Below the pieces are notes generated by a model that had not been told where the DNA came from, did not search any database, and worked only from the letters and a program-made list of their open reading frames with translations. A stretch of 64,000 bases of DNA from Pantoea vagans (lineage in GTDB: Bacteria; Pseudomonadota; Gammaproteobacteria; Enterobacterales; Enterobacteriaceae), in NCBI RefSeq assembly GCF_004792415.1, contig NZ_CP038853.1, positions 1,550,001-1,614,000 on the forward strand, written 5' to 3'. The position numbers and the translations under genes were made by a program. Position 1 is the first letter of the stretch. Each line of letters starts with the position of its first letter. Shown in pieces: positions 3,656 through 54,918 of this stretch.

Positions 3656-4581
3656 TGCATATCGTCTATAAATCGGAGCCGGAACGTGGGCGGATCTGGC
3701 AGCGCTGGCTGGCGGAACATGCGCCTGATATTCAGCTGCATCTCTGGCCGGAGACCGGTGATCAGGAGCAGGTTGAGGCGCTGGTCGCCTGGCAGCCACC
3801 CGAAGACATTCCGGCACTGTTTCCCCGGCTGAAACTGCTGTTCTCGGTGGGGGCGGGTGCCGACCAGTTTGATTTCAGCGCGCTGCCGCCTGACCTGCCG
3901 GTGATAAGAATGATCGAGCCGGGCCTGACGCAGGGCATGGTGGAATATGTCACCTTCGCGGTGCTCGGTCTGCATCGCGACATGCCGCGCTATTTCCATC
4001 AGCAGCGCCAGCAGCAGTGGCAGCCTCATGCAGCCATACCTGCCGGGCAGCGTCGGGTCGGCGTGATGGGGCTGGGCGAACTGGGGCAGGCTGCGTTAGC
4101 GCAGCTGGTGGCGCTGGGCTTTGACTGCGCAGGCTGGAGCCGCACACCGCGCGAGTGCCCCGGCGTGCGCTGCTGGTACGGCAACGATCAACTCGCTGAC
4201 TTCCTGGCGCACAGCGAGATTCTGGTCTGCCTGCTGCCGCTGACCGACACCACTCAGGGTTTACTGAATCAGTCGCTGTTCAGCCAGCTACCGCACGGCG
4301 CGGCGCTGGTACAGGCCGGGCGCGGCCCGCAGCTGAATGATGATGATCTGCTGAAGGCACTGGAGAGCGGTCAGCTGCGTGCCGCCGTCGTTGACGTCAC
4401 CGATCCGGAGCCGTTACCGCCGGGCCATCCCTTCTGGCACCATCCCGCCATCTGGCTGACGCCGCACATTGCCAGCCAGACGCAGAATGAGAGCGCCATT
4501 GCGGCGCTGCTGGAGAACCTGCGGCGCTACCAGCGTGGCGAGCCGCTGCACGGTGAGATTGACCGTTCGCGAGGATATTAA
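3655..4581 (+). CDS. D-2-hydroxyacid dehydrogenase (GhrA-like glyoxylate/hydroxypyruvate reductase family)
   Basis: 308 residues, the usual size of GhrA. The NAD(P)-binding Rossmann motif GVMGLGELGQAAL lies in the middle, preceded by a split substrate-binding domain (LLFSVGAGADQFD). Further on are the conserved arginine-containing VQAGRGPQL, DVTDPEPLPPGHPFW and the catalytic histidine region LTPHIASQT. It would reduce a 2-oxoacid to a D-2-hydroxyacid in the cytoplasm. In this cluster it could handle a ketoacid or glyoxylate made by the oxidoreductase or aminotransferase. It is coupled to the GNAT gene by TGATG and is followed within two bases by the M20 gene. Confidence 0.88.
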   Translation: MHIVYKSEPERGRIWQRWLAEHAPDIQLHLWPETGDQEQVEALVAWQPPEDIPALFPRLKLLFSVGAGADQFDFSALPPDLPVIRMIEPGLTQGMVEYVTFAVLGLHRDMPRYFHQQRQQQWQPHAAIPAGQRRVGVMGLGELGQAALAQLVALGFDCAGWSRTPRECPGVRCWYGNDQLADFLAHSEILVCLLPLTDTTQGLLNQSLFSQLPHGAALVQAGRGPQLNDDDLLKALESGQLRAAVVDVTDPEPLPPGHPFWHHPAIWLTPHIASQTQNESAIAALLENLRRYQRGEPLHGEIDRSRGY

Positions 4582-4582
4582 A

Positions 4583-5716
4583 ATGGAACATTTAGTGGCA
4601 CTGCGCCGCGACCTGCATACGCACCCGGAACTGGGTTTTCAGGAGCAGCGCACCAGCGACATCGTGGCGAACTTCCTGCACCAGCTGGGCATTGAGGTGC
4701 ATCGCGGCATCGGTAAAACCGGCGTGGTCGGGATACTGAAGAAGGGCAGCAGTGAACGCATGATTGGCCTGCGCGCCGACATGGATGCGCTGCCGATGCA
4801 GGACCAGAGCGGCACGGAATGGCAAAGTCAGGCAGAGCAGGTGAGTCATGCCTGTGGCCACGATGGTCATACCGTGATGCTGCTGGGTGCCGCTGAAAAA
4901 CTGGCGCGGGACGTCAGCTTTGACGGCAGCGTCTGCTTTATCTTCCAGCCAGCCGAAGAAGGACTGGCGGGTGCAAAAGCGATGATCGACGACGGTCTGT
5001 TCAGCCGCTTTCCCTGTGAGGCGGTCTACGCCATTCACAACTGGCCGGAACTGCCGCTCGGTCAGGTAGAGACCCGCCCTGGCCCGATTATGGCGGCGGC
5101 CGACCGCTTTGATATCCGGGTGCTGGGCGGTGGCGGTCACGCCGCGCAGCCTCACCTGACGCGTGACACTTTGCTGGCGACCAGTGAACTGGTGGTGCAG
5201 CTCAATACGCTGGTTTCACGCGCTTTGGATCCGTGCGAAACCGCGCTGCTTACCGTCACACGGATGCAGGGCGGCTTTTCACACAACATGATCCCGGCCG
5301 AGGCGAGTATCACCGGCACGGTGCGTACCTTCAGCCCGGCGGCCCAGGATACGATTGAAGCACGGCTGCGCCAGATGGCGGAGCACGTCACGGCGGCTCA
5401 TGGGTTGCACGCAGAGGTGAGCTATCAGCGTTACTACCCGGCGACGGTGAACAGCGCGACGGAAGCGCAGTTTTGCCTGGAAGCGCTGACGCAGGCAGAT
5501 ATCCCGGCTGACACCGCGGCCAGACCCGCGCTCACCTCGGAAGATTTCGCATTTATGCTACAGGCGCGTCCCGGTGCCTATCTGTGGCTGGGATCGGCAC
5601 CCTGTAAGCCATTGCACCATGCCGCATATGACTTCAACGATGCGCTGATCCCGCATGGCGTTAACGTTTTTGTCGCGCTGGTACGCCAGGCGCTGGCAGA
5701 GAAATTTCCCTGCTGA
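4583..5716 (+). CDS. M20 family amidohydrolase (amino-acylase / hippurate hydrolase type)
   Basis: 377 residues. Metal-binding motifs of M20D amidohydrolases are visible: RRDLHTHPELGFQE at the start, GLRADMDALPM, the HACGHDGHTVM ligand cluster, FQPAEEGLAGA and the late EDFAFM. I place the start at 4583, preceded by GAGGA and matching the family N-terminus; an upstream ATG at 4469 would add 38 unrelated residues inside the preceding gene. The family cleaves N-acyl or N-carbamoyl amino acids to the free amino acid in the cytoplasm. Next to a peptide-type importer and an aminotransferase, it probably releases an amino acid from an imported conjugate. Confidence 0.92.
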   Translation: MEHLVALRRDLHTHPELGFQEQRTSDIVANFLHQLGIEVHRGIGKTGVVGILKKGSSERMIGLRADMDALPMQDQSGTEWQSQAEQVSHACGHDGHTVMLLGAAEKLARDVSFDGSVCFIFQPAEEGLAGAKAMIDDGLFSRFPCEAVYAIHNWPELPLGQVETRPGPIMAAADRFDIRVLGGGGHAAQPHLTRDTLLATSELVVQLNTLVSRALDPCETALLTVTRMQGGFSHNMIPAEASITGTVRTFSPAAQDTIEARLRQMAEHVTAAHGLHAEVSYQRYYPATVNSATEAQFCLEALTQADIPADTAARPALTSEDFAFMLQARPGAYLWLGSAPCKPLHHAAYDFNDALIPHGVNVFVALVRQALAEKFPC

Positions 5717-5829
5717 ATGCAGCGGGATTTTGACAGGAAATGCCGCTGCCTGGGGAATTACGGCAGCGTGAGAAACCAGCGGGTTGCGATACTTGAGCCA
5801 ACCGAACGTTACGTGGATGAGGGTTTAAA

Positions 5830-7146
5830 ATGCAGAATGTCATGGCAGAGCAGCAAGCATACTCCGATAACAGCCTGTTACTGGATGCACGCGAGCAGAA
5901 CGTGCCGCGCGGTGTAGTGACCGCCCATCCGCTGGTGATTGAACGCGCCAGAGGCAGTGAAGTGTGGGACGTTGAGGGCAATCGCTATCTCGACTTTGTT
6001 GGCGGCATCGGCGTGCTGAATGTCGGCCACAATCACCCGGCGGTAGTCAATGCGGTAACCCGCCAGCTTGGTCTGGTGTCACACGCCTGTTTTCAGGTGG
6101 TGGCCTATCCGGGCTACATCGAGCTGGCGCAGCGGCTGAACAAACTGGTGGGCGGCGATGAGGCGTACAAAAGTGTCTTCTTCACCAGCGGTGCCGAAGC
6201 GGTGGAAAATGCGGTGAAGATTGCCCGCTCATACACCCAGCGCCCCGGCATTATCGCGTTTGATGGCGCGTTTCATGGCCGCACCCTGCTGGGCGTTACC
6301 CTGACCGGCATGTCCGCGCCATACAAACAGAACTTTGGCCCGTTCCCCGGCGACATCTACCGTCTGCCCTTCCCGAATCCACTGCACGGGGTGACGGAAG
6401 CGGACTGCCTGAAGGCGCTGGACCAGCTGTTCGCGGTGCAAATCCTGCCGGAGCGTGTGGCGGCGATTATCATTGAACCGGTTCAGGGCGACGGCGGCTT
6501 CCTGCCAGCCGGACCAGCCTTTATGCAGGCGCTGCGTCGCATTACCAGCCAGCACGGCATTCTGCTGATTTGTGATGAAGTGCAGTCCGGCTTCGGACGC
6601 ACCGGCACGATGTTCGCTTTCCAGCAACTGGGTATCAAACCGGATTTAATCACCCTGGCGAAAAGTCTGGGCGGCGGTCTGCCGATTTCCGGCGTGGTGG
6701 GACGGGCGGCGATCATGGATGCGCCCACGCCTGGCGGGTTAGGCGGCACCTACGGCGGCAATGCGCTGGGCTGTGCGGCAGCGCTGGCGGTGCTGGATCT
6801 GTTTGAACAGGAGAACCTGCTGCAGCGTTCCTGTCAGCTCGGCGAACAGCTCAATGCCCGTCTGCGACAGCTGGCGGATAAATATGCCTGCATCGGTGAC
6901 GTGCGCGGCGTGGGCTTTATGCAGGCGGTGGAAATTCTCGATTTCGAAACCGGACGTCCCGATGCGGCGCTGACTCAGAAGATCCTCGACAGCGCCTGTC
7001 AGGAAGGCCTGCTGCTGATCAAGTGCGGCCTGCATCGCAACACCATCCGTTTCCTGGCACCGCTGGTCACCACCGACTCACAGCTGGAAGAGGCGCTGCA
7101 TATTTTCGATATTGCGCTGGCCCGTGCCACTGGCCGGCTGGGTTAA
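5830..7146 (+). CDS. Class III PLP-dependent aminotransferase (GabT-like 4-aminobutyrate aminotransferase)
   Basis: 438 residues, standard for the family. The fold is full length: FVGGIGVLNVGHNHP, the phosphate-binding FTSGAEAVENAVKIAR, AFHGRT, the acidic LICDEVQSGFGRTG and the PLP lysine K278 in TLAKSLGGGLP. Closest by eye to GabT/PuuE enzymes that move the amino group of 4-aminobutyrate or a similar omega-amino acid to 2-oxoglutarate. It begins 113 bases after the M20 gene behind GAGGG. The true start may be this ATG or the one four codons on. Omega-amino or ornithine-like substrates remain possible. Confidence 0.92.
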   Translation: MQNVMAEQQAYSDNSLLLDAREQNVPRGVVTAHPLVIERARGSEVWDVEGNRYLDFVGGIGVLNVGHNHPAVVNAVTRQLGLVSHACFQVVAYPGYIELAQRLNKLVGGDEAYKSVFFTSGAEAVENAVKIARSYTQRPGIIAFDGAFHGRTLLGVTLTGMSAPYKQNFGPFPGDIYRLPFPNPLHGVTEADCLKALDQLFAVQILPERVAAIIIEPVQGDGGFLPAGPAFMQALRRITSQHGILLICDEVQSGFGRTGTMFAFQQLGIKPDLITLAKSLGGGLPISGVVGRAAIMDAPTPGGLGGTYGGNALGCAAALAVLDLFEQENLLQRSCQLGEQLNARLRQLADKYACIGDVRGVGFMQAVEILDFETGRPDAALTQKILDSACQEGLLLIKCGLHRNTIRFLAPLVTTDSQLEEALHIFDIALARATGRLG

Positions 7147-7311
7147 ACCGCATTCCTCATTGATTTTGTTAGAGTAATTTGAAAATCTCCCGCTGGTATA
7201 ACCACTGCGAAGCGCTGGCGCGTTTACGGTAAAGCATGTTATATCTTCGGGAGGTTCTGAACATTTGATTGAGCGCCTGGCCCAACAGGCTCTGACAATG
7301 AGGGGGGTGCT

Positions 7312-7824
7312 ATGAACGGCTTAATGAAACTCGACCGCATCGACATCAACATCCTGGTGCAACTCCAGAAAGATGGCCGTATCAGCAACGTTAACCTCGC
7401 CGACGCCGTAGGCCTCTCGCCCAGCCCCTGTCTGCAACGGGTCAAACGTCTGGAACAGGCCGGTTTTATCACCGGTTATGAAGCGCACATTAATCTCACC
7501 CGCATCACCGATTCAGTGACCGTCTTTACCGAAGTCACCCTGTCGGGCCATCGCCGCGAAGACTTTATGAAATTTGAAAGTGCGATGCGCGACGTCGATG
7601 AACTGATGGAGTGCCATCTGATCACCGGCGGCTATGACTATCTGCTGCGCTTTATTACCCGCAGCATTGAACATTACCAGGAAGTGATTGAGAAGATGCT
7701 CGACGCGCAGATCGGCATCGATAAGTACTTCAGCTATATCGTCATCAAATCCCCCATCATGAAAAGCAGCGTGCCGTTACGATCGCTCATCGGCAAACAT
7801 AACTCAGTCGAATTCGGCGTATAA
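7312..7824 (+). CDS. Lrp/AsnC family transcriptional regulator
   Basis: 170 residues. An N-terminal winged helix-turn-helix (MKLDRIDINILVQLQKDGRISNV onward, with LSPSPCLQRVKRLEQAGFI as recognition region) is followed by the RAM ligand-binding and oligomerisation domain (VTLSGHRREDFMKFE, ECHLITGGYDYLLR). It has the length of Lrp rather than AsnC. The start chosen has a strong GAGGGGGGT ribosome site; the next ATG four codons in is also possible. It lies 165 bases after the aminotransferase gene and is the obvious local regulator of the surrounding amino-acid-derivative cluster. Confidence 0.92.
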   Translation: MNGLMKLDRIDINILVQLQKDGRISNVNLADAVGLSPSPCLQRVKRLEQAGFITGYEAHINLTRITDSVTVFTEVTLSGHRREDFMKFESAMRDVDELMECHLITGGYDYLLRFITRSIEHYQEVIEKMLDAQIGIDKYFSYIVIKSPIMKSSVPLRSLIGKHNSVEFGV

Positions 7825-8075
7825 CGGGCGGTCGCCCCTCGCCACCTCCCCGGTGGAGAGGGCGGCCACACGCATTATCTCTGTCTGCTGTTCACCACAC
7901 CCGCCTTTGCTCACAGACCGGCTTCCTGTTCCTTTAACCTTTGCGATTTTTCCCTCAGCATAAAATTTTTTCCCTGCCCAAAATTCAGTCGCTCTGTCCG
8001 GTTTTGTCGCGTGCTACGGCCTCAATCGTTGAGCGAACCCTTTTACACTGAATTCAACCGATACAAGGAGTTGTC
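7825..8075 (+). other. Intergenic spacer with GC-rich hairpins after the Lrp-type gene
   Basis: The first 50 bases contain overlapping GC-rich inverted repeats (GGGCGG/CCGCCC-type arms around 7827-7875) that could end transcription of the regulator, but no T-run follows. The remainder, up to the AAGGAG site before the GNAT start, is AT-richer and should hold the promoter of the next operon. I could not settle on a specific promoter. Confidence 0.4.
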
Positions 8076-8522
8076 ATGGACTCATTACAGATTGCTGACC
8101 AGCAGTGGCAGCGCGATGCGTTCACTGTCTCTACCGATCGCCAGCGGCTCGATCTGGCCTGGATCCACATCCAGCTGGCGGAGAAATCCTACTGGGCTAA
8201 AGGCCAGCCGGAAGCGAAAACCCGGCGGGCGATTGCCGGTTCGCTGCCGTTTGGCCTCTATCACCAGCAGGAACAGATTGGCTTTGCCCGACTGATCACC
8301 GACTACACCCGCTTTGGCTGGCTGTGCGACGTGATGATTGATGAAAGCTGGCGTGGTCACGGGCTGGGCAGCTGGCTGGCGACCTGCGTCCGGGAACACC
8401 CGGAGCTGCAAACGGTGCATCGCTGGATGCTCTCGACCCAGGATGCGCATGAGGTCTACCAGCGGCTCGGCTGGCGTGTGGTGCAACATCCCGAGACGCT
8501 GATGGAATTTCCCCCTTCCTGA
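8076..8522 (+). CDS. Small GNAT family N-acetyltransferase
   Basis: 148 residues. Conserved GNAT features: FARLITDYTRFGWLCDVMIDE as the core strands, ESWRGHGLGSWL as the acetyl-CoA loop, and DAHEVYQRLGW near the end. Preceded by AAGGAG. It lies just upstream of hyuA with an 18-base gap, so it probably opens that operon. The acceptor substrate is unknown. An overlapping longer frame from 8011 is a shadow. Confidence 0.9.
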   Translation: MDSLQIADQQWQRDAFTVSTDRQRLDLAWIHIQLAEKSYWAKGQPEAKTRRAIAGSLPFGLYHQQEQIGFARLITDYTRFGWLCDVMIDESWRGHGLGSWLATCVREHPELQTVHRWMLSTQDAHEVYQRLGWRVVQHPETLMEFPPS

Positions 8523-8540
8523 CACTGGAGTTAACCCGAT

Positions 8541-10583
8541 ATGCGATACCGCGTTGGCGTGGATATTGGTGGTTCCTTTACCGATTTCGCCGTGCTCGAT
8601 CAGCAAACGAACCAGATCCACACCCTGAAGGTCCTGTCGCGACCGGACAAGCCTGGCAGCGAAATCTTAACCGGACTGGCGCAGTTTCAGCAGCAGGGCA
8701 TTGACCCCGCTGAAATTGGCTACTTCACTCACGGCACCACGGTAGGCATCAACGCGGTGATCCAGCGGCGCGGTGTGCGGCTGGCGCTGTTTGCCACCGA
8801 GGGCTTCTGCGATGTGCTGGAGCTGGCCCGGCTGAAAATCCCGCATATCCATGACCTTTTCTCACGGCGTGCAGCACCGCTGATTACCCGCGACAGGGTA
8901 TTTGCCATCCGCGAACGCAGCGACGCGCAGGGCAACATACTGCAACCCGTGGATCGCCAGAGCGTGCTCGACGCTATCGAACAGGCACGCGCCGCCGGCT
9001 GTCAGGGCATCGTGGTCTCGCTGCTGCACAGCTATCGCAACCGGCACAATGAAGCGGCGGTAAAAGCGATTATCGATGAGGTGGCGCCTGAACTGCTGAC
9101 CTCTTGTTCCGCCGACATCTGGCCGATCATCCGCGAATATGAACGCACCATTACCGCCACCATCAACGCCTACGTGCAGCCGATGGTGATCCACTACCTG
9201 GAATCCTTTGAGCAGGCGCTGAAACGGCTTGGCGTGAAGCCGCCGCCGCGCATTACCAAATCCAACGGCGGGGTAATGGGCGTTGACCAGGCGAAGCGCG
9301 AATGCGTGCAGATGGTGCTCTCCGGCACCGCCTCCGGCGTGATTGGTGCCAGCTATCTCGCCAGCGCCTGCGGTTTTGACAAAATTCTCAGCCTGGATAT
9401 CGGCGGCACCAGTGCCGACGTGGCGGTGATCATCGACGGCAAGGTGGCGCAGGGCAATGGCGAAATCATCGGGGATTTCCCAATCTTTATTCCTTCCGTC
9501 GCTGTGACCTCGGTGGGTCAGGGCGGCGGCTCGCTGGCGTGGATTGATGGGCAGGACGTATTGCAGATGGGGCCGGACAGCGCCGGTTCGCTGCCGGGTC
9601 CGGTCTGCTTCCAGCGCGGCGGCACGCAGCCGACCGCCACCGATGCCTTTGCCGCCTGCGGCATGATGGGCCACGGCGCACTGGGTTATGATGCGGTGAC
9701 GGTTGATGTCGCCGCCGCCTGTGCCGCCTGGCAGCCGCTGGCGGATGCGCTCGCTATTTCGGTCGAAGAAACCGCCGAAACCGCAATCCAGCTGGCCATC
9801 TCCAGCATGTACAGCGATACCAGCGGCCTGCTGTCGCGCTTTGGTCTCGATCCCCGTGAATTCTGGTTCCTGGCCTTTGGCGGCGCGGGGCCGATGATGG
9901 GCTGTTTTCTCGCCCGCGAACTGAACATGAAAGGGGTGATCGTGCCGCCGACGCCGGGCGTGCTCTCCGCGCTGGGCGGGCTGGTAGCGGACATCCGCAA
10001 CGACTTTATCCGCACGCTCTACGGCGATCTGACGCCTGGGCTGGCCGACACCTTAGCCAGTGAAGCCGAAGCCTTGCAGCAGCGCGCCTGCGGCTGGCTG
10101 GCGCAGGAGCACGGCAGCGACATGCCATACAGCCTGCAGTTCAGCGCGGATATGCGCTATCGCGGTCAGTCATTTGAGATCGACGTGCCGCTGGAGGCGA
10201 GCTGGCTGACGCAGGCGGACTTCGCTGCGCTGCATGACGCCTTTGATCGTCAGCATCAGCAGCTGTTTGGTCACTGTGACCCGCAGGCGCCGGTGCAGCT
10301 GATTAATCTGCGGCTGGTCATCACCTCGCCGACGCCGAAACCGGTGATCAATACACTTCCCCCCGCCACAGCACCCGTACCGGTGCTGAAACAGACCCGA
10401 GCCTGGATCGACGGCGGCTGGCATCAGGTGGACTTAGTGCTGCGTTCGGTGCTGCGCGCCGGACATCAGCTCAGTGGCCCGGTCATCATCGCCCAGGACG
10501 ATTGCACCACCTGCGTGCCGCCCGGCATGGGCGTCACGGTCGATTCATTCGGTAACCTGCTGATCACGGCGAACGAGGCATAA
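8541..10583 (+). CDS. hyuA: Hydantoinase/5-oxoprolinase subunit A (HyuA, N-methylhydantoinase A type)
   Basis: 680 residues, the usual length. It begins YRVGVDIGGSFTDFAVLD, the first phosphate loop of the ASKHA ATPase fold. FTHGTTVGINAVIQRRG and SLDIGGTSADVAVI follow, and later FLAFGGAGPMMGC. The family couples ATP hydrolysis to opening of 5-membered cyclic amides (hydantoins, 5-oxoproline, N-methylhydantoin) and works with HyuB, which starts one base after this stop. Next to an M20 hydrolase and the ABC ATPase, this suggests a salvage route for cyclic or N-carbamoyl amino acids. The exact ring substrate cannot be read from sequence. Confidence 0.93.
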   Translation: MRYRVGVDIGGSFTDFAVLDQQTNQIHTLKVLSRPDKPGSEILTGLAQFQQQGIDPAEIGYFTHGTTVGINAVIQRRGVRLALFATEGFCDVLELARLKIPHIHDLFSRRAAPLITRDRVFAIRERSDAQGNILQPVDRQSVLDAIEQARAAGCQGIVVSLLHSYRNRHNEAAVKAIIDEVAPELLTSCSADIWPIIREYERTITATINAYVQPMVIHYLESFEQALKRLGVKPPPRITKSNGGVMGVDQAKRECVQMVLSGTASGVIGASYLASACGFDKILSLDIGGTSADVAVIIDGKVAQGNGEIIGDFPIFIPSVAVTSVGQGGGSLAWIDGQDVLQMGPDSAGSLPGPVCFQRGGTQPTATDAFAACGMMGHGALGYDAVTVDVAAACAAWQPLADALAISVEETAETAIQLAISSMYSDTSGLLSRFGLDPREFWFLAFGGAGPMMGCFLARELNMKGVIVPPTPGVLSALGGLVADIRNDFIRTLYGDLTPGLADTLASEAEALQQRACGWLAQEHGSDMPYSLQFSADMRYRGQSFEIDVPLEASWLTQADFAALHDAFDRQHQQLFGHCDPQAPVQLINLRLVITSPTPKPVINTLPPATAPVPVLKQTRAWIDGGWHQVDLVLRSVLRAGHQLSGPVIIAQDDCTTCVPPGMGVTVDSFGNLLITANEA

Positions 10584-50951: not shown

Positions 50952-51232
50952 GTTACGCGTTGCAGCGGGCGGGCTCTGAGCGGGTTACGCCCGCCAGGCG
51001 AGGGGGAGTTTCAGGTTGCCTGTGCAGGCGGACGCGTCAAGGGGCGGACGCCCGCCCCTTAACAATCCCGGCGTCCGGCAGCCTGCGCGCCCCGCTTTGC
51101 GGGGTGCCCTCGTCACGCCCTGCGGCCAGCGGACCGTCCGGACGCGCCATCCCTGGCGCGAACCGTCCTTTCGCCGACGTCCTGTCGGCTCATCCTGGCC
51201 TCCGGTTATTCCTCAGCGCTACGGATGCCTCT
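50952..51232 (+). repeat. Composite hairpin repeat, copy A1 (forward)
   Basis: About 280 bases made of successive GC-rich hairpins, among them CGCGCCA-tccc-TGGCGCG and GCCGAC-gtcct-GTCGGC. Highly similar to copies at 51252, 53871 (partial) and 54066, and, inverted, at 51811 and 54452. Open frames across it are by-products of base composition. Confidence 0.85.
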
Positions 51233-51251
51233 GGTGAAAACCTGCCGGTAG

Positions 51252-51536
51252 GTGCGTTTCGCTTTGCAGCGGGCTTGCTCTGAGAAGGTTTCGCCCGCCA
51301 GGCGATGGGGAGTTTCAGGTTGCCCGTGCAGGCGGACGCGTCAAGGGGCGGACGCCCGCCCCTTAACAATCCCGGCGTCCGGCTACCTGCGCGCCCCGCC
51401 GTGCGGGGTGCCCTCGTCACGCCCTGCGGCCGACGGACCGTCCGGACGCGCCATCCCTGGCGCGAACCGTCCTTTCACCGACGTCCTGTCGGCTCATCCT
51501 GGCCTCCGGTTGTTCCTCAGCGCTTCGGATGCCTCT
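51252..51536 (+). repeat. Composite hairpin repeat, copy A2 (forward)
   Basis: Second forward copy, 20 bases after A1 and close to it in sequence from the TGCAGCGGGC-like start to GATGCCTCT. A1 and A2 form a tandem pair. Confidence 0.85.
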
Positions 51537-51600
51537 ACCAAACCTCCGTCTGTAATCCCTCCTTTGTTTTTCGGATGGTGTGTTGTCTGCTGGACTTAAA

Positions 51601-51671
51601 GCCAAAGCCAAAGCCAAAGCCAAAGCCAAAGCCAAAGCCAAAGCCAAAGCCAAAGCCAAAGCCAAAGCCAA
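51601..51671 (+). repeat. (GCCAAA)n hexamer microsatellite
   Basis: Eleven perfect GCCAAA units plus a partial one. It would read Lys-Pro repeats on the plus strand and Leu-Ala or Trp-Leu on the minus, but no supported gene covers it. Such a tract changes copy number easily by slippage. Confidence 0.95.
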
Positions 51672-51810
51672 TCACGGAATCTTACCGCTACAATCTCAGT
51701 GCCCGAAGAAGACGTGATTACCGAGGATAGGGTGTAAGGCCTTTCTGACCGTTGAGCCTGAAGCCAGAGGCAATCCTGAAAACCACAGCGATAAAGTATC
51801 CAACACAATA

Positions 51811-52114
51811 AGAAGAGATAACAGCGAGGGGGCAGGGAGGCCATCTGAACCGCTGAGCGGATGAGGGATTTCAGGACGAGCGACAGGGATGTCGCGAAGA
51901 GGCGGGTTCGCGCCAGGGATGGCGCGTCCCGGCGGTCCGTGAGAAATCCTGAAGAAGCGAAGGGACCGCGAAGCGGCGGTGAAGCAGGCCGGAGCCGGGG
52001 GGCAAGGGGCGCGGCGACTGGCGCCCCTTGTCGGTCGCCTGCAGAGGCGTGTCTGAAACTGCCCAACTGCTCAGGCGAACGAAACCCCTCTCAGCGCCTG
52101 TTCGCGCAGCGGAC
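51811..52114 (-). repeat. Composite hairpin repeat, copy C1 (inverted)
   Basis: Reverse-oriented member of the same family: on the minus strand it runs CAGTTTCAG, then TGCAGGCG, then CGCGCCATCCCTGGCGCG in the same order as the A copies. It is nearly identical over about 290 bases to C2 at 54452, and ends close to the stop of the LuxR-type gene at 52177. Confidence 0.85.
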
Positions 52115-52176
52115 AAACCCTAGCCTCAGCGCCACAGCAGCCCGTTCGCGCAGCGAACAAACCCAGCCTCTGCGCC

Positions 52177-52842
52177 TCAGGTAATCATCACATATCCTTT
52201 GTTCAGGAAAAAAGGCGGGATGTAGTTATCCCACCCCTCCTGCATACAATGCTGCTTCAACGCAGCGTTGCTGGTTGCACCAGATTTGTCGTAACAGCGT
52301 ATAAGCCGGTTGCGAAGGGCCGGAGCACTGATGCCAAGAATTCCTGGCATAAGGTTCTGCTTTACCCCACAAAGCAATAGCAGAATCACTTCCCATTCTT
52401 TGTCGGTGAAGATATTCGCGGGCCGTGTAAAGACAAAGGATCTTCTGTCACGTGGCCGGAGGAACGTTGAAAAGTAAACATTGGTTATCTCAAGGTAGGT
52501 ACAGATAATACCATCGGTTCCGTCACTGAGCGTCCACGGGCGTTTCTCCACCATAAAAGATCTCAGCCTGTTTTCTCTTCCGTATTCAAAAGTCTTAAGC
52601 ACAATACTCATTTCTTTTGTATTCAGGATTTTTTTATCATCATGCAGAATATGATGGTAATAATCACTCATGTCTGGCGTCAGGTCGGTGTCAAATGTCC
52701 CCAAAATAGTGTCAGGCGTGACGTTGAAATAGCTGCATGCAAGCTTATTTGCATAAACATACCGTGAGGCACTGTTTTTTATAGCCCAGCCAAACAGCGA
52801 GTTATCAAAGTAATATTCAACAGGATTCAGCTTTCTGAGCAT
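52177..52842 (-). CDS. PAS-LuxR-type regulator, downstream paralogue
   Basis: 221 residues. An N-terminal PAS-like domain (FGWAIKNSASRYVYANKLACSYF) precedes a LuxR-like helix-turn-helix (FTDKEWEVILLLLCGV to RNRLIRCYDKSG). The C-terminus YIPPFFLNKGYVMI is shared with the upstream gene. The pair is a tandem duplication, and this gene starts 4 bases after the other ends, with its ribosome site inside that gene. It is much AT-richer than the surroundings, consistent with transfer. It probably binds DNA in response to a small ligand held by the PAS fold. Targets are unknown. Confidence 0.85.
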   Translation of the reverse strand: MLRKLNPVEYYFDNSLFGWAIKNSASRYVYANKLACSYFNVTPDTILGTFDTDLTPDMSDYYHHILHDDKKILNTKEMSIVLKTFEYGRENRLRSFMVEKRPWTLSDGTDGIICTYLEITNVYFSTFLRPRDRRSFVFTRPANIFTDKEWEVILLLLCGVKQNLMPGILGISAPALRNRLIRCYDKSGATSNAALKQHCMQEGWDNYIPPFFLNKGYVMIT

Positions 52843-52846
52843 CAGT

Positions 52847-53530
52847 TCATCCTCTTATTATAATATGGCCTTTTTTCAGGAAGAACGGTGGAATATAGTG
52901 GTCTAACTTATTTTCACGGCAATAGCCGGTCAGTGCGGAAAGCGAATTCAGACCGATCTTTCTGTAACAACTTCTGAGTCTGCCATTAACTGCGTCAGCT
53001 GAAATCGCCAGGATGCTGCTTATTTCTTTTATGTTCATGCCACAGACCAGCAGATAAACGACTTCCCACTCTTTTTCTGTGAAGACGGATGAGGGCGCTT
53101 CAAAAGTCGCATGCTGAATTATTTTGCCGTCCAGCAAGGCACCCGGTGTGATGATTCTCACATGCCTGACGCTGACAACTGTTCCTATACAGTTATGCGC
53201 GTCGTCATACAGTGGCTCCTGAACGCTGTATGCGGGCTGCATGATTTTCTCTTTGCCCTGTATATGCGTAGTAATCGCTCTTACCGCCTGGCCAGTTCTT
53301 TCTATGTCTCTTTCCTGCTGGCTGAACAGGTCAGCAAATTCTGCGACCGGAACAGGCATATCTCTGATATGACGACCTTCATAGTCAAATCCTGTTGAAA
53401 GCGTCTGCCAGCTTTTGAACGTATTATTGACATAAACAAAGCGGGACTGATTGTCCTTCACTCCCCAGCCGACAATAGGATCGTTTTCAAACATCCTGAT
53501 AAGTCTGGCAGGTAATGTAATTTCCTTCAT
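52847..53530 (-). CDS. PAS-LuxR-type regulator, upstream paralogue
   Basis: 227 residues with the same plan as its neighbour: PAS-like domain (VGWGVKDNQSRFVYVNNTFKSW), middle linker, helix-turn-helix (FTEKEWEVVYLLVCGMNIKEISSILAISADAVNGRLRSCYRKIG) and YIPPFFLKKGHIII at the end. The helix-turn-helix is better preserved here than in the downstream copy, whose recognition helix region (LMPGILGISAPALRNRL) has diverged. AAGGA precedes the start. The operon is enclosed by inverted composite repeats. Confidence 0.87.
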   Translation of the reverse strand: MKEITLPARLIRMFENDPIVGWGVKDNQSRFVYVNNTFKSWQTLSTGFDYEGRHIRDMPVPVAEFADLFSQQERDIERTGQAVRAITTHIQGKEKIMQPAYSVQEPLYDDAHNCIGTVVSVRHVRIITPGALLDGKIIQHATFEAPSSVFTEKEWEVVYLLVCGMNIKEISSILAISADAVNGRLRSCYRKIGLNSLSALTGYCRENKLDHYIPPFFLKKGHIIIRG

Positions 53531-53870
53531 GAGTGTGTCCTTACATTTTCATTACTCTACATTAAATTGACCTTGCAACTTAATAACCCTACAAAGAAAT
53601 AACACTTTATATAAAACGCCGTACTTTAATTGTACCTTTATGCAAGCAGGAATGGGTGTGAAAGTAATATCACAAGCCAACGCGCAGGGAAAGTTGTCTG
53701 TATAATAAAAAAGAAGTATGCCCATAGCCGAAAGGTTATGGGCTTTTTGTTTTAAGCGGAAGATTAATTACGGGGTTTAATTGGGGTTAATGACAGGATT
53801 TAATGGTCCGCATAAATTTCGATTTGGAGCGGGCTGATGCTGGGAGGGGTTTCGTTCATCTGGCGAGCTG
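53531..53870. other. AT-rich promoter region of the LuxR-type operon, with plus-strand terminator
   Basis: No protein gene. The AT-rich part to about 53640 should hold the promoter of the minus-strand regulators. A strong plus-strand intrinsic terminator follows at 53720-53750. After that is spacer, with a short inverted fragment (GAACGAAACCCCT on the minus strand, 53846-53860) that also recurs at the ends of the C copies. Confidence 0.6.
53720..53750 (+). terminator. Strong intrinsic terminator with no known gene upstream
   Basis: GCCCATAGCC (53720-53729), GAAA tetraloop, GGTTATGGGC (53734-53743), then TTTTTGTTTT. It is a textbook plus-strand terminator. The only plus-strand DNA before it is the leader region of the minus-strand regulators, so it may end a small RNA. 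Confidence 0.8.
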
Positions 53871-53996
53871 GGCATGCTTTACAGCGGACTGGCTTTGAGA
53901 AGGTTACGCCCGCCAGTCGATGGGGAGTTTCAGGTTGGCTGTGCAGGCGGACGCGTCAAGTTGCGTACGCCCGCTCCTTAACAATCCCGGCGGGTA
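53871..53996 (+). repeat. Composite hairpin repeat, partial copy A3 (forward)
   Basis: About 125 bases matching the left part of the A copies, up to AACAATCCCGGCG, then broken off. An inverted short fragment containing GTTCGCTGCGCGAA (54016-54029) follows before A4. Confidence 0.8.
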
Positions 53997-54065
53997 GCGG
54001 CCCGCCAGGCCTTTAGTTCGCTGCGCGAAAGGGCGCTGAGAGAGTTTCGTTCGTCTGACGAGGTG

Positions 54066-54346
54066 AGCATGCTTTGCAGCGGACTGGCTCTGAGAAGGTT
54101 ACGCCCGCCAGGCGGTCGGGAGTTTCAGGGTGCCGGTGCAGGCGGACGCGTTAAGGGGCGTACGCCCGCCCCTTAACAATCCCGGCGTCCGGCAGCCTGC
54201 GCGCCCCACTTCGCGGGGTGCCTTCGTCACGCCCTGCGGCCGACGGACCGTCCGGACGCGCCATCCCTGGCGCGAACCGTCCTTTCGCCGACGTCCTGTC
54301 GGCTCATCCTGGCCTCCGGGTGTTCCTCAGCGCTTCGGATGCCTCT
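54066..54346 (+). repeat. Composite hairpin repeat, copy A4 (forward)
   Basis: Full-length forward copy, close to A2 in sequence. With C2 downstream it mirrors the A2-C1 arrangement on the other side of the LuxR-type genes. Confidence 0.85.
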
Positions 54347-54451
54347 CCCAAACCCCCCGGCTGTGAAATTTTTATGTTTTTTTAGTGCAGCGTTGTCTGC
54401 TGCCTAAAGACCCTTCCGGAAACGTAAAGCGATAACGTGCCTAACAAAAAA

Positions 54452-54757
54452 AGAAGAGATAACAGCGAGGGGATTGGGGAGGCCATCTGAACCGCTGAGC
54501 GGATGAGGGATTTCAGGACGAGCGACAGGGATGTCGCGAAGAGGCGGGTTCGCGCCAGGGATGGCGCGTCCCGGCGGTCCGTGAGAAATCCTGAAGAAGC
54601 GAAGGGACCGCGAAGCGGCGGTGAAGCAGGCCGGAGCCCGGGGTCAAGGGGCGCGGCGACTGGCGCCCCTTGTCGGTCGCCTGCAGAGGCGTGTCTGAAA
54701 CTGCCCAACTGATCAGGCGAACGAAACCCCTCTCAGCGCCCGTTCGCGCAGCGAACA
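54452..54757 (-). repeat. Composite hairpin repeat, copy C2 (inverted)
   Basis: Nearly identical to C1 (51811-52114) from AGAAGAGATAACAGCGAGGG to the CGTTCGCGCAGCG end. The near identity suggests recent duplication or ongoing gene conversion between the two. Confidence 0.85.
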
Positions 54758-54918
54758 CCCCCAGCTTTAGCGCATGCATTCGCCAGGCGAACGAAACCCC
54801 TCTCAGAGCCCATTCGCGCAGCGAACAATCCCAGCATCAGCTCTGCTGCCAGCCCGTTCGCGCAGCGGACAAACTCTAGCCTCAGCACCACAGCAGCCCG
54901 TTCGCGCAGCGGACAAAC
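54738..54918 (+). repeat. Short repeat CCCGTTCGCGCAGCGRACAA, several copies
   Basis: The motif appears near 54740, 54809, 54853 and 54897, and at two points near 52100 and 52141. Spacing here is about 44 to 70 bases. An inverted variant lies at 54014-54030. It is the terminal piece of the composite repeat multiplied. Spacing and identity are too irregular for a CRISPR array, and there are no cas genes. Confidence 0.7.

Follow-up and report, generated by a model that had tools for sequence, protein, structure and literature searches.

Outward-facing twins of TwoAYGGAY-type RNA elements at variable-cargo intergenic sites of Pantoea vagans and related bacteria

Introduction

REP and REPIN elements with RAYT transposases are extragenic palindromes, which occur as inverted pairs and often lie at 3' ends of genes. 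Defence hotspots, and likewise integrons and other cassette arrays, have conserved edges, between which the defence cargo is exchangeable. RU-1, RU-2 and RU-3 are intergenic, multicopy repeats of enterobacteria with a length of 103-168 bp, and their description, as far as available, states no cargo-edge behaviour (PMC2759123). TwoAYGGAY (Rfam RF01731), with two adjacent hairpins, AYGGAY-like loops and tandem G-A in the stem, was listed as a probable RNA (PMC2864571, in the part consulted), and it was already proposed to bind CsrA; RMfam matched it to the CsrA-binding motif (PMC4333381, likewise). Here we describe a ~280-nt element containing this RNA in a window of 64,000 nucleotides of Pantoea vagans (assembly GCF_004792415.1, contig NZ_CP038853.1, positions 1,550,001 to 1,614,000), where two forms of it, A and C, form outward-facing twins on both sides of two regulator genes between adeP and amn.

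The element has features in common with all of these systems. Like REP and REPIN elements, the twins are extragenic, palindromic, mutually inverted and often at 3' ends, but they are far longer, consist of a covarying multihelix RNA, and no RAYT domain was found in this genome. From the RU repeats, which are likewise intergenic and multicopy, they can be set apart by description only. Conserved edges and exchangeable defence cargo are shared with defence hotspots and integrons, although the edges here are covarying outward RNA. Compared with TwoAYGGAY itself, the core lies inside a ~280-nt half with further hairpins, and the half is part of an outward twin. No report linking twins or cargo to TwoAYGGAY was found in the literature, of which subscription journals and preprints were thinly covered.

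Identity and fold of the repeats

Sequence comparison and profile search agreed with the order given in the first-pass annotation, A-A-C, two AT-richer genes, then a partial A, A and C. With half boundaries taken from one profile for each form, the A halves were placed on the minus strand at 50970..51241 (A1), 51274..51553 (A2) and 54082..54364 (A4), with only the 3' part of a further half at 53887..54002 (A3), and the C halves on the plus strand at 51809..52111 (C1) and 54450..54753 (C2). By direct comparison, the forward copies 50957-51243, 51261-51547 and 54071-54357 have 91-93% identity to the reference copy, and a shorter one lies at 53849-54005. The near-identity claimed for C1 and C2 was also confirmed, with 98% between 51835-52120 and 54477-54762, which are 2642 bp apart. 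Copies in both orientations are present as claimed, with the correction that A and C belong to a single kind of element, placed on opposite strands, and are two diverged forms of one structured RNA. Their ~68-nt cores are 83-86% identical when aligned alone and 74-77% across longer stretches. Since the A halves, on the minus strand, and the C halves, on the plus strand, point apart, every A|C unit is a twin that faces outward.

The first-pass annotation knew no formal name for the element, which was wrong for the core. A1 (core 51130-51197, 48.1 bits), A2 (51432-51501, 48.5 bits) and A4 (54242-54311, 50.8 bits) matched RF01731 on the minus strand above its gathering cut-off of 43, while the plus-strand cores of C1 (51872-51948) and C2 (54514-54590), both at 41.0 bits, narrowly missed it. 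Strong matches in the twins of this genome span model positions 43-123 at most, and the outer stem outside these positions was not matched in them; full-length matches occur in some Pantoea genomes and in other genera. Both GGA-loop hairpins with covarying stems that characterize TwoAYGGAY are present. A coding role of the repeats was rejected, for the open reading frames (ORFs) through A and C track the repeats and mirror each other on both strands, with no further search made.

The earlier idea of a structured RNA was supported by the Rfam match, loop conservation and covariation. A covariance model built from 26 cores gave 192 hits in 97 loci, and the best 150 of 192 were aligned, giving 133 distinct rows for the measurement. 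In these rows 89.5% of cells were paired, against 76.2% in shuffles, changes on both sides occurred in 17 of 24 pairs, and none of 500 shuffles was as high on any of five covariation measures, in an alignment that is itself fitted to structure and whose related rows can exceed shuffles. A mixed alignment of A and C (97 halves) gave no usable fold, while the separate sets and the covariance model did fold. A giant A:C hairpin as the conserved unit was rejected, because the identity between A and C is about the same within a genome (0.579) as between genomes (0.576), so local folds have been kept and not a long inverted repeat.

The outward strand is favoured as the RNA, judging from covariation and loop conservation. 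The 133 rows held 94 G-U pairs and 12 A-C mismatches, for a structure predicted on the outward strand. For alignments of halves, from which those under 140 bits were excluded, the outward fold of 45 distant halves had 227 G-U and 54 A-C cells, and in the opposite-strand fold A-C (94) exceeded G-U (65); this reversal favours the outward strand. The near sets, with G-U/A-C of 158/49 and 220/64 for the two strands of C, and 257/94 and 269/72 for those of A, do not decide the strand, since their G-U excess tracks whichever strand is folded. Loop region 1 contains GGA in 131 of 133 rows and loop region 2 in all 133. In 89 near halves, 187 GGA-loop hairpins were counted on the outward strand compared with 7 on the inward one, and in 68 distant halves 108 compared with 9.

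Orientation of neighbouring halves

Neighbouring halves at 84 loci, with halves under 55 bits excluded, were outward in 65 cases, tandem in 28 and inward in 3; many loci are orthologous and the counts are not independent. The three inward neighbours are all the 1.75-kb step across the regulator pair. Within 500 bp, Pantoea halves gave 65 outward, 26 tandem and no inward neighbours, and 64 of these 65 outward pairs were spaced 59-407 bp, the other being overlapping fragments. Five whole genomes from other families gave 83 hits, among which neighbours less than 10 kb apart were outward in 10 cases, tandem in 25 and inward in none. One genome of a different family (G164) contained tandem TwoAYGGAY arrays and a solo copy at 1379-1381, 3324, 3517 and 3660-3662 kb, with no outward pairs.

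Concerted evolution and inversion

Five A|C twins were identified at four loci of this 4.79-Mb genome, locus a (~742.6 kb), b (1539 kb), c (1601-1604 kb, this window) and d (1676 kb), together with nine further weak RF01731 matches (E 0.007-0.86). Chance origin is excluded by these five units at four loci and by the covariation. The copies are thus neither restricted to one locus nor without conserved ends and covarying stems, either of which would have spoken against the earlier ideas. Loci a to d are common to related species, and this conservation speaks against frequent transposition.

The C halves at different loci of one genome had a mean identity of 0.879 (51 pairs), and those at the same locus across genomes 0.778 (214 pairs); the corresponding values of the A halves were 0.873 (80) and 0.830 (264). 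When the C tree (35 rows) was labelled by genome, 15 changes were needed against a shuffled mean of 25.6, and none of 300 shuffles was as low, while labelling by locus was no better than shuffled (18 changes against 18.8; 116 of 300). The A tree (44 rows) gave 20 changes against 31.8 by genome (0 of 300) and 22 against 22.6 by locus (128 of 300). Rows of G005, G044, G020 and G057 and rows of 300 nt or less were left out of the trees. By these comparisons, the copies within one genome evolve in concert.

Inversion was compared in 23 site-by-genome cases with both flanks and both halves identified, and the twin was inverted in place in three of them (locus a in G031 and G043, locus d in G053). 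Together with the presence or absence of the regulator pair at its site, this supports the recombination substrate suggested earlier, through comparison of genomes and not of reads.

Cargo turnover at the adeP-amn site

The cargo in this window consists of two genes on the minus strand, one (52177..52842) encoding a PAS_4 protein of 221 aa and the other (52847..53530) a protein of 227 aa with PAS_4 and GerE, the LuxR helix-turn-helix. Both had been called PAS-LuxR genes; PAS_4 exists in both, while the LuxR-type domain was found by Pfam (E<=0.001) only in the second and not in the first. They are AT-richer as claimed, with a GC content of 0.45 compared with 0.59 for adeP and 0.60 for amn.

Among 21 genomes, the PAS-LuxR pair was present at this site in five and absent in 12, and the contig was too short in four. 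A full twin lies on both sides of the pair in G000, G033 and G025; in G031 the pair has a single half to its left and a twin to its right, and in G044 fragments of halves flank it on both sides. The second gene was found at the same site in G033, G025, G031 and G044. A twin without the pair occurs in five genomes, G038, G016, G046, G043 and, in divergent form, G005. Other cargo with one A half is present in G053 and G057, namely LysR, a methyl-accepting chemotaxis protein and small ORFs. The last five genomes have no twin. Four of them have a lone gene at the site, for which weak Pfam matches in the two that were scanned suggest a coiled-coil-like product, and in the fifth there is a gap of 112 bp. 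Same flanks with different cargo in relatives, the mark of a variable-cargo hotspot, were found here and at the ribB site described below.

Relatives of the PAS-LuxR pair were also observed side by side away from amn, on other contigs of two Pantoea species (G030:C5:125354-126682 and G022:C5:267584-268907), with 64-65% and 26-27% identity to the second gene; the pair itself may be mobile. In G043, G026, G036 and G007, the amn match contains one TAA, which may be a start-region effect or a real lesion.

Distribution and cargo in other genomes

RF01731 matches were obtained in at least 50 of 60 Pantoea genomes, above the cut-off in at least 44 of 60 and with up to 37 hits per genome, and in the order in at least 86 of 295 genomes and 22 of 99 genera; these counts are lower bounds due to stricter filters. 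A DNA pattern scan of named genomes was too loose and gave mostly noise. No TwoAYGGAY match was obtained in the phage collection or the E. coli collection. Eleven records of the plasmid collection matched, four from Pantoea and seven labelled Klebsiella pneumoniae, and the two Klebsiella loci inspected had one half each between convergent genes. One record filed as a plasmid, CP125156.1 (L354), is a 5.37-Mb Klebsiella record, and its iolB site has an insertion-sequence-like block, recognized by eye, that is absent from a shorter Klebsiella record.

Outward pairs in other genera of the order enclose cargo of 1-9 kb, in which anti-phage genes (Septu, Shedu, AbiH, KAP, DUF2971) are frequent. An unpicked set was provided by the five whole genomes, in which six of the eight outward pairs over 1 kb had a PADLOC match at E<=1e-20. 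These were a KAP NTPase (L386), a GmrSD-type protein with a weak SIR2-like neighbour (L387), a PHP-ATPase of Ppl type (L407), Septu PtuA with its partner PDC-M01B (L401), Shedu SduA with AbiH (L408) and a second KAP protein (L411). The other two had no match at this level; L406 encloses unknown genes, and L409 (five of eight ORFs scanned) unknown genes with IS91-type transposons. In L409, two copies of the IS91-type pair lie within one outward pair at 3669-8868, consisting of Y2_Tnp, with a Zn-binding domain in the one scanned, and a recombinase-like ORF.

When all 15 loaded pairs were counted, picked ones included, 10 had a match at E<=1e-20. E-values inside pairs reached 7.9e-194 (PtuA), 2.7e-229 (SduA), 8.7e-136 (PDC-M11A) and 1.2e-95 (PDC-S20), and PDC-S31, AbiH and others were also matched. 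Inside the pairs 14 of 38 proteins matched at E<=1e-20, against 1 of 38 outside (Fisher 0.0003), and at E<=1e-40 8 of 38 against 0 of 38 (Fisher 0.005), with both cut-offs chosen afterwards. The sole outside match was to a generic ATPase model at 2.7e-34. The inside set is 38 scanned of 43 ORFs. Six scanned proteins (L406:4249-4977, one in L416, two in L418, two in L420), none of which matched, were omitted from it, since no two detected innermost halves enclose them. The outside control is 38 of 46 ORFs of at least 100 aa, without two L390 transposase pieces, one ORF of L401, ribB and three between-array ORFs in L406, and one ORF of L412. Enrichment of defence genes was thus found in other genera and not for the Pantoea cargo.

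At the ribB site, TwoAYGGAY was present in six of 11 loci (G196, G222, G135, G209, G183 and G153), with only one half reaching the cut-off in G222 and G209. The edges and arrays align at ~83-92% among G196, G135 and G183, and the edges at 72-94%, in pieces, with G209, G222 and G153. The stretch between the edges (0.98-2.7 kb) is unalignable except for DUF2971 genes common to G183 and G153. In G196 (L406), tandem arrays separate successive cargo blocks. A match to Group II intron D1-D4-3 was observed near a half at this site in G209 (L418, 8945-9118).

Possible link to CsrA

The SELEX (systematic evolution of ligands by exponential enrichment) consensus of CsrA is RUACARGGAUGU, mostly in six-base loops, and CsrA bridges sites across 10-63 nt (the part of PMC7652899 consulted). 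Loop 1 of C1 and C2 contains ACAGGGATGT, which matches the 3' ten letters of this consensus. The GGA-to-GGA spacing is 30 nt in all five cores of the window, which falls inside the bridging range given by the same part of PMC7652899. The halves would bind CsrA, as inferred from their sequence. They resemble CsrA-binding RNAs of the CsrB/RsmY type in having GGA in hairpin loops and a pair spacing suited to one dimer, and differ in having two clear loops each and in that their binding is predicted; the genome also has a standard CsrB.

Other features of the window

The centre of twin 1 (51554..51808) has a GC content of 0.48 and no sigma70 promoter above chance, and the centre of twin 2 (54365..54449) a GC content of 0.40. 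An array of AAAGCC hexamers at ~51598-51671 in the first centre is length-variable and possibly slippage-prone. A longer one in the locus a twin (L031, ~4769-4884) shifts into ACAGCC-type units.

The units are flanked by short GTTCGCGCAGCGAAC-type hairpins, whose strand on the A side is opposite to that on the C side. Two lie past C1 (52100..52158, plus strand), four at and beyond the end of C2 (54742..54914, plus strand), and one, inverted relative to these, on the A side (54016..54030, minus strand). A genome-wide REP role for them was rejected, since 19 of 21 sites with at most one mismatch lie at the four twin loci. Between the 5' side of the cargo genes and twin 2, a terminator-like hairpin with a T run was identified (53720..53743, plus strand); the count of such sites was not above shuffles.

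Alternative explanations

The twins might be 3'-end insulators or terminators between convergent genes, with AT-rich centres that are merely safe for insertions and cargo that follows position. In 46 of 62 units both flanks could be called with a simple in-house gene caller, and 35 of them lie between convergent genes, 6 and 5 between co-directional genes and none between divergent genes. The centres show no promoter excess, which would also fit. Against it, no intrinsic terminator was found in the halves, what is conserved are GGA loops and local pairing, and the arrays and edges at ribB persist while cargo changes. We regard this explanation as unlikely.

Alternatively, the halves could be multicopy genes of CsrA-sequestering small RNAs (sRNAs) transcribed outward from the centre, with the cargo incidental. 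The RMfam match, as given in the available part of PMC4333381, the C loops that fit the SELEX consensus, and the RNA covariation all agree with this. Such genes would have their own promoter and terminator. No sigma70-like excess was detected in 64 twin centres (mean z -0.35 and -0.33; the scan was of sigma70 type, with other promoter types outside it), by which divergent sRNA promoters in the centre were rejected, and the halves lack an intrinsic terminator. Besides, only two clear GGA loops exist per half, and cargo turnover and outward pairs 1-9 kb apart would be left unexplained, so that this alternative seems rather improbable.

A mobile non-autonomous element was another suggestion of the first-pass annotation, and the twin could be an element of the miniature inverted-repeat transposable element (MITE) type with long terminal inverted repeats, moved in trans, whose larger forms carry cargo. 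Dispersal of the family is real, copies are near-identical, the outward halves are mutually inverted, and twins exist both with and without cargo. In L390 (59-1108, minus strand), an ORF named by eye as a Y1-like transposase, broken by a stop and without a Pfam match in its first piece, lies 94 bp from a half, and similar sequence occurs near TwoAYGGAY in L401, L357 and L374. Yet A and C are only 58% identical within a genome and so are not near-identical terminal inverted repeats, tandem copies exist, the four sites are common to several species, and no Y1/RAYT transposase domain (PF01797) was found in this genome by a search that was positive in 5 of 14 control genomes. A MITE is therefore very doubtful, and a plain REP/REPIN reading was rejected, since no RAYT domain was found in the genome.

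Proposed role of the twins

On balance, an A|C unit is probably an outward twin of TwoAYGGAY-type RNAs and serves as the edge of an intergenic site whose cargo varies, with homologous exchange and a coupling to CsrA. RNA structure, orientation, concerted evolution, in-place inversion and cargo turnover, as seen in the comparisons, are the basis of this proposal. The halves are structured RNAs, with the outward strand favoured, and the repeats would spread, homogenise and swap cargo by homologous recombination or gene conversion and not by a dedicated transposase. As the halves point outward, a transcript that runs out of the cargo between them would carry the edge half in sense as its 3' part. 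In a cargo-free twin, a transcript reading in from either neighbour would contain the near half in antisense and the far half in sense. With a twin on either side of the regulator pair in this window, a leftward transcript from the pair would cross C1 in antisense and then A2 and A1 in sense. The paired GGA loops could hold one CsrA dimer, and CsrA on the halves could tie the stability or termination of the transcript, or the pool of free CsrA, to the Csr system.

Several observations weigh against this proposal. Most Pantoea twins seen are cargo-free, and the cargo of this window lies between two twins and not inside one. PADLOC gave no match for the PAS-LuxR pair, nor for the three ORFs scanned from the LysR and chemotaxis cargo. 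L399 has two successive cargo-free twins whose adjacent halves are inward neighbours at 242 bp, so that "never inward" is true within single twins and not between successive ones. Five of the 15 loaded pairs (L393, L406, L409, L410 and L417, with five inside ORFs unscanned) gave no specific defence match; the loaded loci were partly picked because hits lay close together, and L392 and L419 are not independent, their cargo being homologous. At the ribB site TwoAYGGAY was absent in 5 of 11 loci, in G255 and G275 over more than 12 kb and in G323, G352 and G295 over short stretches. GC-rich stems of 5-6 bp may exceed the stability CsrA prefers, according to the consulted part of PMC7652899. The presence of GGA in the two loop regions is partly an effect of selection by the model. 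Nor is the comparison of G-U with A-C a clean test, since the near sets follow the folded strand and the 94/12 structure was predicted outward.

A wider and more tentative possibility is that the twins, as outward CsrA-binding RNAs, are the edges of an unrecognised class of exchangeable cassettes across the order, offering both homology for swapping and Csr control of departing transcripts, so that gained defence or regulator genes would be expressed according to growth state. If so, an RNA family listed since 2010 without a function would have one, and mobile defence genes would be tied to a global RNA regulator. Outward TwoAYGGAY pairs would then be a sequence handle for unknown defence genes in several genera of the order.

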